A DNA stretch of 10,376 nt from an uncultured Ruminococcus sp. GTDB lineage: Bacteria > Bacillota > Clostridia > Oscillospirales > Ruminococcaceae. The notes under the pieces were generated by a model. It did no database searches and was not told the DNA's origin. It worked only from the letters and a program-made list of their open reading frames with translations. The position numbers were made by a program, and so were the translations under genes. Positions within the stretch are counted from its first letter, which is position 1; each line of letters starts with the position of its first letter. This document shows positions 2,400-7,350 of this stretch, piece by piece. The DNA is taken from contig USEH01000063.1 of the NCBI GenBank assembly GCA_900553675.1, positions 1 to 10,376 of the forward strand, in the 5' to 3' direction.

Positions 2400-5300
2400 T
2401 TATTTGGACTGTATACCCATTTCCATTATCTTTTTGGCGCGCTCGACTGCTTCCTTATACCTTGGCTCTTCCCTTACGGAATCGAACCATTCCCAGCCGC
2501 TCTTGGCAATAAGGGGCTGATATATGACGTCCGCGTGCATAACAAGCCAGTTGTACTGAAGCTTCCGCCTTGTGCCGTCCTTAAGCTCAATAACATCATT
2601 CCAGCAGCCATAGCCTGAGTTCTTGATATAGCGTATATCGCTGAAAACAAACGGATTGCCTACAGAAAGCTTTTCGCCCTCGGGTATCTTCAACCATTTT
2701 TCGAGATAATCCAGCGCCTTGTCGAGATACTCATAGCCCTCTTCCTTTCTGCCGCCGCCGAAAAGCGCAGCACTTGCCTTAAGACAGATTCTGGAATAGT
2801 AGCCGATAAGTCCTTCGGGGACGCCCGAATCGCCGCCGGCGGCTTCACAGAGACGAAGCTTGTGCTTTCTCCACTCCGCAACAAGGAGCGGGTCGTAATT
2901 GCCGTGGCTGAATCGTGTAAGCTCGTGATACAAAATCATAAAGTTGTTGTAGCCGCCGAGGTCGTTGGCTTCGTTGGGCTTGTTGTTTTCCACCAGTATC
3001 TGCTCCCTGATTTCGCTGTAAACGCCGCCGTAGGTGGTTGTTCTGGGAGAGATATCCCGAACGCCTGTCTTGTCCTCGAAGACGATTATATCCCCGCTTG
3101 CGTCGTCCTTGACATAGGTATACTCAGCCGCCGCGATGTAGCCGTCGGTGAGGTTGGTGGCGTCATACCGCCTTACCATGCCGTCCTCAAAGGGCATATA
3201 GCCTTCGCCGCCACCTTTGCAGACGGTAAGCTCGTAGGCAGCAGGGCTTGTGTCGAAAGCGCCGTAGACCTCGAATCTTACAAGACCCACATTCGGCGCG
3301 AAGTAATACGCCTTTTTGCCGTTGCAGTATGACATACCTTCGCTGTAGCCGGTGCAGTCAACCGTCAGCTTAATGCAGTTTTTAAAGCTTCCGGCAGGAC
3401 ATATAATCTCGCCCACTTCTTCACAGACAATGCTTGATTCAATAGCGTCGCCGTAGAATTTCAGCTTTTTAACCTCGCTGTAGCCGGGCTTCCATTCATC
3501 CGACCACACTGCGCCGGTTATCTCAAACAGAATCTCGTAAATATCGTTGCATAAAACAGGCATTTCGGCGGCGGCACCGGTATTGACCTTACATTCAAAG
3601 CTCCAGCGGAAGCCGGAATCTATATAGCTTAAAGCTCCGCCGTTTCTTCTTACGGCTTGTTTTGAAAAGAAGTTCCAAACACCCCTGACCTTGGTTTCGG
3701 GGTTGAAGACCTCATCTGTCTCCATGATTCTTCTTACAACCGAAGCCGCAGCCTTGGCATGAGCCTTTTCCATAGGGGTTTTTGCCAGAAGCATGGCGCG
3801 ATCCGCTGTGTCGCGCATATCAACAACCTTGTCGTTTTCGTCAAGGTATTCACTGCGTATCTTCAAGACCATATCAAGCCACGAGTTTTCGTCGTACTTC
3901 TGCCGCTTCATATAGGTGTGCTGAGTGAGAATAGCTTTCTCCGAGTCGGCATATGCCACCTCTAACCTTGTTGTATGCTCGATAAATTCGGGGCTTACAT
4001 TCAGGCTGTACTCCCAGAAGTTTCCGCGCCTCATCGGGATAAGGCTGTCTGCGCCGCCGTCGACCTTATATGCGCAAAGGCTTCTTGCCTCGGTGATGCC
4101 GTCGTCGGTTATTTCCTGTCTGACTATTCCTGTTCCACGCTTGTAATAGGTCTTTATCAGCTTGTGCCCCGATATATTTTCAGCCTGCCAAAGCTCGCAG
4201 CCGGTAAAGTCTCCTGCAAGTGCCTTGACAGTCTCACGATCCGAGACAAAGCTAAGAACAGAGCCGTCCGAGGCGGTAAGGCTTTCGCCCGGCTTGATGT
4301 ATGCGCAGAGCCTGCGGTCGCAGTAAAAGGCGTTTTTTATTATTTCTATCGCGTCGTAGTTAATGGAATACAGATCGCCGTTTGCGAAAGCATAGCTGTC
4401 GGTCAGACGAAGCTCTCCGCCCGCCGAGCGTATCTCATAGGCGTTAGTTTCGTCATTGCGGCACCTTGCGTCCGAAACAAACTCCTTTGAGCAGACCATA
4501 TCAACATTGTCCTTTGCGCGGGCGGCAAAGTGATAGTACATATTGTCGGTGCCAAGAAGCGAGATTGCATTGTCGTATGCCTTGCGCGCTTCGTCGGCAT
4601 TAGCTGTCCATTCATAACAGCCGGAAACATTTATCCATTCCTTTGCGGCGGCGATTTTTAAGCCAAGCTCTAAAAGCTTGGGTATCTGAACATCGCGGAT
4701 AAGCTCTGCACGCTGCTCGCCCCAGTACTTCGAGTTTTCCTTTTCCATGACAAAGAACATAACGTCCTCGTTTTTGCCAAGCTCCGCCGCTTCCTTGATT
4801 CTTGCAAACAGGTTGTCGTTGACCTCGCCGGGGAGCCACCAGTAGCCGCGCATTAGAACATCTGCCAGTGCGTGATACTTTCCGCTCGATTCGGACAGCT
4901 CGTCGATATCCTTTAGTATACTGCGATAATCCGCTTCAAAGCCCGCTTTGGAGTTTTTCAAATCCCAAAGTTTAAGCTCTGCAACCTTTTTCATGACCTT
5001 TTGCAATAAGGTGTCGTTTAAGTTTTCATCCATAGCACTAAGCTCCTTCCTCATTCTCTTTCTGCCGTCGTGAAGCTGCCATTTTACCGTTCCCTCGGAT
5101 ATGCCGAGCGCGAAGGAAATCTCGCGGGCGTCCATATCCTTATAATAGTGCAGGTAAACCACCTGCTTGGCGCGGTCGGGCAGTCTTTCAAGACTCTTTT
5201 GCACTAAATCCGATTCTTCCTTAGACAAAAGCATTTCCTCGGGGTCGAAAGACGTATCCCTTCTTTCGGGAAGATATTCGATATCCTCTAAGCTCAGATA

Positions 5301-5579
5301 GTTGCGAAAACGCCCTGCCATATTCGCCGCGCAGTTTCGCGCAATGCGTCCTACCCACGCGCCGAATTTTTCCGGCTCGCGGAGCATATTAAGCCGTATC
5401 CAGGCTGCGCAGAAGGCGTCCTGAGTGGCGTCCTCGGCGATATGCGGGTTGCGTATTACCGCATAAGCAGCTGCTCGGACGGACTTTTCGTGCCTCCTGA
5501 CAAGTGCTTCGTAAGCCGAGTCGTTTCCGGCAAGCGTTAAGAGCACCAGGGTTTCGTCCGACATATCCATGTATGCCAT
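2400..5579 (-). CDS. ECF sigma factor fused to ~870-residue uncharacterised C-terminal region
   Basis: This 1059-residue protein begins with a complete ECF sigma factor. Region 2 is at about 20-95 (FDALVRRHE-like start, EDATQDAF, then FGAWVGRIARN). Region 4 is at about 120-182 (LERLPDRAKQVVYLHYYKDM, then the helix-turn-helix ISFALGISEGTVKWQLHDGRKR). Ordinary ECF sigmas stop near residue 190. Here a helical stretch follows (about 190-360, with a TPR-like DEARKAYDNAISLLG), then beta-rich modules (about 370-850), then a helical C-terminal part (about 880-1055). The beta region contains an AG-[DS]-F...YY...G-[IL]-V-R motif twice (about 454-488 and 729-769) and a 'P-G-W-Y' style module opening twice (LIPMRRGNFWEYS near 513, YMPFEDGMVRRYD near 794). 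No membrane segment or signal peptide is visible, so the whole protein should be cytoplasmic. The ATG at 5579 has AAAGGA about 8 nt upstream; the ATG at 5588 abuts the SD. I infer a self-contained sensor/sigma protein, since no separate anti-sigma gene is adjacent. Confidence 0.85.
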   Translation of the reverse strand: MAYMDMSDETLVLLTLAGNDSAYEALVRRHEKSVRAAAYAVIRNPHIAEDATQDAFCAAWIRLNMLREPEKFGAWVGRIARNCAANMAGRFRNYLSLEDIEYLPERRDTSFDPEEMLLSKEESDLVQKSLERLPDRAKQVVYLHYYKDMDAREISFALGISEGTVKWQLHDGRKRMRKELSAMDENLNDTLLQKVMKKVAELKLWDLKNSKAGFEADYRSILKDIDELSESSGKYHALADVLMRGYWWLPGEVNDNLFARIKEAAELGKNEDVMFFVMEKENSKYWGEQRAELIRDVQIPKLLELGLKIAAAKEWINVSGCYEWTANADEARKAYDNAISLLGTDNMYYHFAARAKDNVDMVCSKEFVSDARCRNDETNAYEIRSAGGELRLTDSYAFANGDLYSINYDAIEIIKNAFYCDRRLCAYIKPGESLTASDGSVLSFVSDRETVKALAGDFTGCELWQAENISGHKLIKTYYKRGTGIVRQEITDDGITEARSLCAYKVDGGADSLIPMRRGNFWEYSLNVSPEFIEHTTRLEVAYADSEKAILTQHTYMKRQKYDENSWLDMVLKIRSEYLDENDKVVDMRDTADRAMLLAKTPMEKAHAKAAASVVRRIMETDEVFNPETKVRGVWNFFSKQAVRRNGGALSYIDSGFRWSFECKVNTGAAAEMPVLCNDIYEILFEITGAVWSDEWKPGYSEVKKLKFYGDAIESSIVCEEVGEIICPAGSFKNCIKLTVDCTGYSEGMSYCNGKKAYYFAPNVGLVRFEVYGAFDTSPAAYELTVCKGGGEGYMPFEDGMVRRYDATNLTDGYIAAAEYTYVKDDASGDIIVFEDKTGVRDISPRTTTYGGVYSEIREQILVENNKPNEANDLGGYNNFMILYHELTRFSHGNYDPLLVAEWRKHKLRLCEAAGGDSGVPEGLIGYYSRICLKASAALFGGGRKEEGYEYLDKALDYLEKWLKIPEGEKLSVGNPFVFSDIRYIKNSGYGCWNDVIELKDGTRRKLQYNWLVMHADVIYQPLIAKSGWEWFDSVREEPRYKEAVERAKKIMEMGIQSK

Positions 5580-5598
5580 TGTCGTCATCCTTTCTGTT

Positions 5599-5610
5599 TG
5601 AAAGCTTTCA
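5599..5610. promoter_or_regulatory. 12-bp palindrome at the sigma-fusion start site
   Basis: TGAAAGCTTTCA is a perfect 12-bp inverted repeat. It lies immediately downstream of the candidate -10 of the sigma-fusion gene and upstream of its ribosome binding site, roughly where transcription should begin. The position suits an operator for the neighbouring XRE regulator or another repressor. A short AT-rich palindrome can also arise by chance. Confidence 0.35.
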
Positions 5611-5641
5611 CTTATATGACAGTCTGAGAGGGAAAAAGGTT
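5611..5641 (-). promoter_or_regulatory. Candidate ECF-type (autoregulated?) promoter of the sigma-fusion gene
   Basis: On the minus strand an AACCTTTTT element (from 5641) resembles the 'AAC' -35 element of ECF promoters. After 17 nt it is followed by TGTCATATAAG (5621-5611), close to the CGTC-like ECF -10. No good TTGACA is present at sigma-A spacing from TATAAG. The element ends about 32 nt before the ATG. Autoregulation by the encoded sigma factor is typical of ECF genes and is inferred here. Confidence 0.45.
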
Positions 5642-5690
5642 GGGTGATTTTTAAAATTTTTTTGGATTATTTAAAAAAGTTTTCGGGCTA

Positions 5691-6020
5691 TCAATCAAAT
5701 AATTCAAGACACTCGTCAATGATTTTTTCAATGATATTCCTTTGCTCAGGAGTAAGCCTGCGCAGCTTGTCCGACATCAGAAGCATATCCTTATCGATAA
5801 TATCTCCGCTCAAAAGAAAATCCGCGCTGACGCCCAGCGTCGACGAAAGCTTGAGCAGGTTTTCGGGACGCATAGCTCTTTTACCTGATTCGGCATAGGA
5901 GACAAACTGAGGTGTAAGGTCGCCTCTGTCCGCAAGCTCCTCCTGAGTCCAGCCGAGGCTTTTTCTTCTGTCGGTTATTCTTTTACCGATTTCTAATAGT
6001 CTTTTGTCGTTTTCATTCAT
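5691..6020 (-). CDS. XRE-family helix-turn-helix transcriptional regulator
   Basis: This 109-residue DNA-binding protein has a Cro/CI-type HTH at about residues 11-67: IGKRITDRRKSLGWTQEELA, then LTPQFVSYAESGKR as the recognition region, and LSSTLGVSADFLLSGD closing the five-helix fold. The remaining 40 residues are helical (LRRLTPEQRNIIEKIIDECL) and probably mediate dimerisation. There is no sensor or peptidase domain. The ATG at 6020 has AAAGGAG 8 nt upstream. The gene is divergent from the secreted MBL-fold gene and lies 111 nt upstream of the sigma-fusion gene in the same orientation. The sequence between them is A/T-rich with no hairpin, so read-through into the sigma gene is possible. 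Likely targets are its own promoter, the divergent gene or the sigma-fusion gene; none can be shown from sequence alone. Confidence 0.88.
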   Translation of the reverse strand: MNENDKRLLEIGKRITDRRKSLGWTQEELADRGDLTPQFVSYAESGKRAMRPENLLKLSSTLGVSADFLLSGDIIDKDMLLMSDKLRRLTPEQRNIIEKIIDECLELFD

Positions 6021-6223: not shown

Positions 6224-6255
6224 TCAGTCATCAAATATGCAAGGAGGTGAAATCT

Positions 6256-7350
6256 ATGAAAAGGGTTATTTGTTTTGTTCTGACGCTTATAATGATATTT
6301 TCGCTGACTGCGGTTTCAAGCTTCACAGTGCTTGCAGTTGAGGATATCGAGGTGCAGGAAGACGAAAGCAGCTTTGCTATCCACTTTATAGACGTCGGGC
6401 AGGCTGACGCTGCTCTTGTGCTTTGCGACGGCAGTGCTATGCTCATTGACGGCGGAAACGCTGCCGATTCCGACCTGATTTATTCCTATTTGAAAAAGCA
6501 TGAGGTTGACCGGCTTGATTACGTCGTCTGCACTCATGCGCACGAGGATCACGTCGGAGGTCTTGCGGGTGCATTGAACTATGCTTCGGTAAACACTGCT
6601 CTCTGTCCGGTCACAAGCTACGACAGCAAGGCTTTTAAAAGCTTTGTCAAGTATCTGAAAAAGCAAAAGGTTGATATAACCGTCCCAGAAGCCGGTGATA
6701 CATATTCGCTTGGAAGTGCTAAGTTTGAGATTCTCGGACCGATCAGCGGCGATGTCGACGGTGAAAACAACAGCTCCATCGTTCTGAGGATAGTTTACAA
6801 AAATACCTCCTTCCTGTTCACTGGCGACGCCGAACTGGAGGAGGAAAAGGAGATTATCGACGAGGGATATACGCTTGAAAGCACGCTTCTCAAGGTAGGT
6901 CATCACGGCAGTGAAACCTCTACATCCTACGGATTTTTGAAAGAGGTTCTTCCGCAGTACGCAGTTATCTCGGTCGGAAAGAACAACTCCTACGGGCATC
7001 CTACAGAGGATGTTTTGAGCCGTCTGAGAGACGCTGACGTTACTGTTTTCAGAACCGATATTCAGGGCGACATCATCTGCACAAGCGACGGCGAAAGCCT
7101 TTCCTTCACAGTCGAAAAGAACGCCGACGCGGATACTCTCGAAGGCTTGAAGGAGACCGAGGAGGATAAAAAGGAGACAAAGGCGTCAGGCGGAGCATCA
7201 TATGTATTGAATACTAACACTAAAAAATTCCACAAGCCAAGCTGCTCAAGTGTTAAAACTATCAAGGACAAAAACAGGGAAGACTATGCCGGAACACGGC
7301 AGGAAATCATTGATATGGGATATGTCCCATGCAAAAAGTGTAATCCTTAA
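6256..7350 (+). CDS. Secreted ComEC-type metallo-beta-lactamase-fold hydrolase with Cys/His zinc-like tail
   Basis: This 364-residue protein starts with a Sec signal peptide (residues 1-27, hydrophobic core, VLA before the likely cleavage). The MBL domain covers about 40-285. FIDVGQADAALV (44-55) and LIDGG (63-67) are typical of the ComEC/Rec2 C-terminal family. The metal motif is THAHEDHVGG (His94, His96, Asp98, His99). NNSS (171-174), TGDA (189-192), GHHGS (215-219) and SYGHP (245-249) are the other family signatures. An acidic/Lys linker (about 290-312) leads to a 50-residue tail with His326, Cys330 and CKKC (359-362), an Ada-like zinc-site arrangement found on many clostridial secreted proteins. 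The substrate is unknown; a nucleic-acid or phosphodiester role is only a family-based guess. The ATG at 6256 follows a perfect AAGGAGGTGA; the GTG at 6247 overlaps that SD and is rejected. The gene is monocistronic, divergent from the XRE gene. Confidence 0.88.
   Translation: MKRVICFVLTLIMIFSLTAVSSFTVLAVEDIEVQEDESSFAIHFIDVGQADAALVLCDGSAMLIDGGNAADSDLIYSYLKKHEVDRLDYVVCTHAHEDHVGGLAGALNYASVNTALCPVTSYDSKAFKSFVKYLKKQKVDITVPEAGDTYSLGSAKFEILGPISGDVDGENNSSIVLRIVYKNTSFLFTGDAELEEEKEIIDEGYTLESTLLKVGHHGSETSTSYGFLKEVLPQYAVISVGKNNSYGHPTEDVLSRLRDADVTVFRTDIQGDIICTSDGESLSFTVEKNADADTLEGLKETEEDKKETKASGGASYVLNTNTKKFHKPSCSSVKTIKDKNREDYAGTRQEIIDMGYVPCKKCNP

Follow-up and report, generated by a model that had tools for sequence, protein, structure and literature searches.

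How is an ECF sigma factor controlled when it carries a soluble C-terminal region of about 870 residues and has no gene for an anti-sigma factor at its side? Extended ECF sigma factors without an anti-sigma partner are an acknowledged gap, according to the accessible part of PMC8999054, and one of them is encoded in the window, that is, the whole stretch of 10,376 nucleotides analysed here. On balance, we favour the reading that a second translation start lies where the sigma unit meets its extension, and that a free copy of the extension, likely the sigma factor's own regulator, would be made from it.

The gene is a single ORF of 1059 codons plus stop at 2400-5579 on the minus strand, the strand of all features given below unless stated otherwise. 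An alternative in-frame ATG is present at 5588; we favour the start at 5579 because the Shine-Dalgarno-like AGAAAGGA at 5595-5588 suits this position. In a Pfam scan of the protein, Sigma70_r2 (1.8e-10) and Sigma70_r4_2 (1.7e-12) both exceeded the cut-off, and together with a structure model they place sigma region 2 at residues 8-101 (5277-5558) and sigma region 4 at residues 113-177 (5049-5243). These are the sole promoter- and core-binding parts of the sigma protein, which is a hallmark of ECF factors. The preliminary description had reported a full sigma2/sigma4 unit followed by a long, uninterrupted extension, and the 1059-aa frame with both Pfam regions agrees with it; the helix-turn-helix of region 4, for which it had considered a break, is intact and conserved.

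The same description had also considered an assembly artefact or an isolated fusion. In a search with residues 190-1059, for which 7996 candidates of 0.55-1.75 times the query length were scored, 110 of the 117 listed relatives of the extension also contained sigma domains, and the many relatives, some with as little as about 24% identity, that combine a sigma unit with a long extension rule out both possibilities. Most listed relatives are 1040-1100 aa long, more distant members share 24-26% identity, and the family occurs in two size forms, one of about 1050 aa and one of about 850 aa that lacks the last ~200 residues. Three named relatives come from MAGs of Clostridia, two of them from ruminants. 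Matches at E <=1e-40 were found in 25 of 197 genomes from the order of one relative (with at most four candidates scored per genome in most rows), and 49 of 118 genomes of one family had a match. One member, at G134:C13:52974-55492, is divided between two overlapping pieces, the first of which contains stops, and is apparently either broken or affected by a sequencing error.

A profile search of the extension had been suggested beforehand. For the roughly 875 residues in question, Pfam returned nothing over the cut-off, and sub-threshold matches to DUF3108_like and TPR_2 alone; DUF3108_like (PF21347) reached 26.1 bits in the window protein, against a cut-off of 27, and is a precomputed annotation on many relatives. 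Three parts can be told apart: a helical TPR-like region (residues 191-369; 4473-5009), a set of DUF3108-like beta domains with helical inserts (residues 374-842; 3054-4460), modelled at a pLDDT of 93.9 and with profile matches to the PDB entries 4fvs (1.8e-5) and 3fzx (1.1e-3), and a C-terminal helical module (residues 854-1058; 2406-3020) that is common to HTH_3 regulators. Among the matches listed in sequence and fold searches, the extension matched no anti-sigma chain. The claim that the protein has no membrane segment holds, given that the highest 19-residue Kyte-Doolittle mean is 1.08; values above 1.6 occur in just two of 118 family proteins. In the structure model, pLDDT falls below 50 at residues 179-188, where the sigma unit joins the extension, which is more in keeping with a loose tether than with a rigid lock.

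The surroundings of the gene provide no obvious partner. A Pfam scan of the nine other window ORFs gave no match to an anti-sigma family, in agreement with the preliminary description, and the co-transcribed anti-sigma gene that was a classical ECF hallmark (and is no longer required) is thus absent here. An HTH_3 gene of 109 aa (5691-6020) lies directly upstream on the same strand and was not seen as a common neighbour of the relatives in 18 loci; downstream are genes for a redoxin and an iron-sulphur protein. No family recurred within 6 kb in more than three of the 18 loci, the window included. Because its neighbours vary in this way, the sigma gene is an orphan in position, and regulation could plausibly reside inside the gene itself. 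The plus strand of the window encodes, at 6247-7350, a protein with a metallo-beta-lactamase fold and a C-terminus weakly resembling an Ada zinc-binding domain.

The first regulatory element of the gene is its promoter. A predicted -35 element of the ECF type, CCAACCTTTT, is located at 5634-5643 and a predicted -10 element, TGTCATAT, at 5614-5621, 20 nt after the AACC; the site at 5643-5618 is an exact match to the family motif, for which 0.06 matches with up to two mismatches are expected by chance. To describe this motif, 86 loci of family genes were reduced to 67 distinct regions by removing duplicates and those with less than 60 nt of upstream sequence. CCAACCTTTT-N12-TGTCT, with an AACC-to-TGTC offset of 20, precedes 58 of the 67 genes at a score of at least 12 out of 15, whereas the top score among 20 shuffles of each region is about 9 on average. 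The offset is 20 in 55 of the 58 scoring promoters and 19 in three, and AACCTT is invariant in the 55, which is partly circular as these rows were chosen by their likeness to the motif. Nine regions scored below 12, two of which (L077 and L085) have a site farther upstream. ECF sigma factors are characterized by AAC at -35, CGT at -10 and autoregulation (PMC8103513, in its accessible part). The combination of AACCTTTT and (T)GTC found here corresponds to this promoter type, with a -10 that is mostly TGTC rather than CGTC.

Genome-wide, strict sites of this kind fall mostly before family genes. In 15 carriers of the 27 then known, 14 of 19 sites with at most one mismatch lie before family genes (reversed control: 2), as do all eight exact sites. 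A different strict pattern, applied to 40 carriers, hit 29 sites spread over 24 genomes; family genes follow 22 of them and seven lie elsewhere, and the reversed control had five. The 15 genomes without a long match had three sites, each with one mismatch, and six in the reversed control. With this strict family consensus, no second comparable group of promoter sites appears in the genome-wide scans, and a few promoter-like sites are found upstream of other genes; since the consensus was derived from family promoters, weaker targets would escape it. In three of the 15 carriers of the first scan, G002, G044 and G090, the promoter of the full-length gene itself is too deviant to be detected genome-wide. 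Given that 22 of the 29 strict sites precede family genes, the prediction is that the sigma factor chiefly drives its own gene, and positive autoregulation of the gene appears, from the placement of these sites, highly probable.

Just past the -10 element, at the predicted transcription start, the window carries the perfect palindrome GAAAGCTTTC (5600-5609). Its position is kept in the family while its sequence varies, with AAGCGCTT, GAAAGCTTTC, CAGCGCTG, GATGCATC, GAGTACTC, GAACGTTC and others as variants in the window, L003, L007, L024-L034 and further loci. Of the 37 full-length genes that have a promoter, 31 show a half-length of at least three (mean 2.8 and maximum 8 in 1000 shuffles) and 25 of at least four (mean 0.6, maximum 4); of the 21 short or divergent genes, six reached a half-length of at least three and six of at least four (shuffle means 1.2 and 0.2). 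The range of centres, 13-19, was picked after the sequences had been viewed, and the most frequent centres, 16-18, rise above the rest of that table. AAGCGCTT is common to 14 of the 37 full-length genes, so that the palindromes are not all independent. Two copies within one genome, L003 and L007, differ (AAGCGCTT and CAGCGCTG). One may guess that the palindrome serves a dimer as its operator.

The second element lies within the coding sequence. At the end of sigma region 4, the window gene contains the Shine-Dalgarno-like AGGAAGGAG (5043-5051; duplex energy -12.2), followed by an ATG at residue 183 (5031-5033), from which a free C-terminal protein of 877 aa (2400-5033) is predicted. The arrangement is conserved: family genes have the Shine-Dalgarno-like AGAAAGGAG at the joint of sigma4 and extension and then ATG or GTG at residue 183, and the DNA of residues 177-183 typically reads (A/C)GA AAG GA(G/A) ... 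ATG. Of 76 distinct genes, 64 have ATG as codon 183, seven have GTG and five another codon. Two close relatives with ACA and one gene with AAA at this position have an in-frame ATG two codons earlier; the remaining two (ATC, CTC) have no start at 183 and no shifted one in the stretch printed.

We compared the genes with versions in which synonymous codons were redrawn from each gene's own usage. All 71 genes compared have a duplex stronger than the mean of their shuffles, and in 49 of the 71 it is the strongest among about 41 in-frame starts. For any one gene taken alone, an average of 12.5% of the shuffled versions reach the strength of the natural duplex; the argument therefore depends on the genes taken together, which are related by descent. 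The mean deviation from the shuffles is -4.5 kcal/mol at the 64 sites with ATG at 183 compared to +0.1 at 1457 other in-frame ATGs, and among the other ATG columns shared by 15 genes or more, the lowest value is -0.50. Codon choice is skewed accordingly: K178 is AAG in 55 and AAA in nine of 69 genes (AAG gene-wide: 51%), and R177 is AGA or CGA in 61 of 76 genes, codons that account for about 25% of arginines gene-wide. The synonymous-codon shuffles show that selection acts on the DNA of the putative internal Shine-Dalgarno sequence itself.

The predicted strength of the internal site is similar to that of the primary starts, for which the best start within ten codons was used, a choice that favours the latter. 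Full-length genes average -11.4 at both the internal (41 genes) and the primary starts (40 genes), and short genes -10.3 (28) versus -10.6 (27), whereas divergent genes have a weaker internal site, -9.8 (7), than primary start, -13.6 (5). Four database proteins (P0020, P0026, P0036 and P0106) begin at residue 183. The gene displays the hallmark of a dual start, a selected in-frame Shine-Dalgarno sequence with a start codon inside an ORF. Ribosomes very likely initiate at residue 183, and the gene probably produces both the fusion and the free 877-aa extension. In the literature covered by our search, outside of which most subscription papers fall, we found neither this family nor an internal start in any ECF gene described.

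An internal Shine-Dalgarno-like sequence could instead slow ribosomes. The preliminary description had proposed a one-protein switch with a ligand-sensing extension that gates the sigma unit; in this reading the fusion alone would be made, gating would act in cis and the Shine-Dalgarno-like stretch would be a pause site that helps the sigma unit to fold ahead of the extension. Several ECF groups indeed use a fused regulatory extension (PMC8999054, in its accessible part), and the stretch is situated at a domain boundary where pLDDT is below 50. However, pausing requires no start codon, yet 71 of the 76 genes use ATG or GTG as codon 183, and of the five exceptions three have their ATG two codons earlier. 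We therefore regard this explanation as unlikely, albeit as the strongest competitor. The earlier proposal is supported in part: the extension is conserved, soluble and unusually long, and a sensor-like role would suit its end module, while a single product is hard to reconcile with the selected internal start.

What the free extension might do is suggested by its end module. A profile of the last ~190 residues detected 14 places in 11 of 117 genomes of the order, eight in open frames of more than 1000 aa and six in open frames of 375-465 aa. All eight short end-module proteins scanned (L039, L040, L041, two in L042, L043, L162 and L164; 374-437 aa) contain HTH_3. For the beta region, these 117 genomes gave 21 places, which lie in open frames of 649-1141 aa; a short, free-standing form did not appear. 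Occurrence of the end module on both a sigma factor and HTH_3 regulators fits a role in sensing or interaction. At L141:406-1599, an HTH_3 protein of 397 aa has a CCCAACCTTTT...TGTC site upstream and is a possible non-self target.

Taken together, the elements suggest the following scheme. The sigma unit would bind CCAACCTTTT-N12-TGTCT before its own gene and thereby activate it; each mRNA would yield the fusion from the first start and, as the conservation of the second start implies, the free extension from there. Acting in cis and in trans, the extension might prevent the sigma unit from joining core RNA polymerase as long as its sensor of TPR, beta and end-module parts receives no cytoplasmic signal. 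The second start could ensure a surplus of regulator, the part played in ordinary ECF operons by a separate anti-sigma gene. That the extension regulates the sigma factor seems to us somewhat more probable than not. The full combination, a collapsed sigma/anti-sigma operon with a second start, a near-private promoter, switch and brake on one mRNA and a gene-specific palindrome, is a more tentative proposal with a little less than an even chance. An alternative that we consider rather improbable takes the extension as output and not as brake, the sigma factor merely switching on its own gene to amplify an effector or scaffold protein. Strict promoter sites almost restricted to family genes (14/19; 22/29) and a second start yielding free extension would suit it, but the extension matches no enzyme family in Pfam or PDB sequence searches, its end module is otherwise found on HTH_3 regulators, and some promoter-like sites precede other genes.

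Other ECF loci suggest a possible history of the gene. Of 14 such loci in the genomes G001-G003, three, namely L014, L017 and L020 of the related genome G001, have at their end a Shine-Dalgarno-like sequence and an ATGA overlap with a second gene, the product of which has a hydrophobic segment, as judged by eye; the remaining loci have long ORFs, or the next gene is absent or differently spaced. The internal start of the fused family occupies the place that corresponds to the start of the second gene in the three operons, and we infer by analogy that the fusion may have arisen by merging the frames of a sigma/regulator operon. The shared layout might also mean that the conserved start is a relic of that operon with no present role, but this is very unlikely, as the Shine-Dalgarno-like sequence is kept beyond what codon usage gives in genes whose products are 24-48% identical to that of the window gene.

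RRNPP proteins are a family of peptide sensors, of which NprR is an example, with a TPR superhelix and a signal peptide bound by the TPR region as hallmarks; the window protein has a sigma factor in place of their DNA-binding head, and fold-comparison Z scores in the range obtained are widespread among helical repeats. ECF52 proteins have a membrane part. For the remaining comparisons we refer to PMC8999054, in its accessible sections, which lists at least 26 ECF groups with N- or C-terminal extensions, 15 of them unstudied, and, where it names lengths, gives ~70 to 200 residues, in line with the earlier statement that known extensions are much shorter. ECF42 is similar in combining an ECF sigma unit and a TPR-bearing extension with the lack of an anti-sigma gene (PMC8999054, same sections), but its hallmarks are a TPR extension of about 200 residues and a nearby gene with a YCII domain. 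The window protein does not belong there: its extension spans ~875 residues with beta domains, an end module and a second start, TPR_2 is sub-threshold, none of the nine window ORFs matches YCII, and the family has no recurrent neighbour gene. ECF41/ECF56-type factors carry a SnoaL-like extension, of 120-150 residues for ECF56 and others, that is proposed to regulate sigma in cis (PMC8999054, same sections); the window protein, for which Pfam gave no SnoaL hit at E values up to 1, is far longer, with a second product predicted, and is not one of them. Sigma and anti-sigma parts are paired in one protein in ECF52/SCO4117 and some ECF36 members, yet the ECF36 fusions have 3-4 transmembrane helices (PMC8999054, same sections) whereas the window protein is soluble and has a second translation start. 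The extension of ECF57 is likewise thought to work by protein interaction, with WD40-like C-terminal repeats in some members (PMC8999054, same sections) that have no match here. One gene giving a full-length protein and its free C-terminal part is known from Salmonella SpaO (PMC13059759, accessible part); SpaO is not a sigma factor, and for the window gene the second product is a prediction.

For extended ECF factors without a partner, the family offers a compact answer, as the regulator may come from the same gene through a second start. If true, this would constitute a portable switch that needs no partner gene, and a warning that ORF-based annotation can conceal a second product in a family of gut Clostridia. 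The near-private promoter further raises the question of what purpose is served by a sigma factor that chiefly transcribes itself. Long ORFs of 516-562 aa are also present in other ECF genes (L011, L013, L019, L022 (genome G002), L021 and L023); since L011 and L021 have a Shine-Dalgarno-like stretch and an ATG right after sigma4, dual starts may be commoner than this family.
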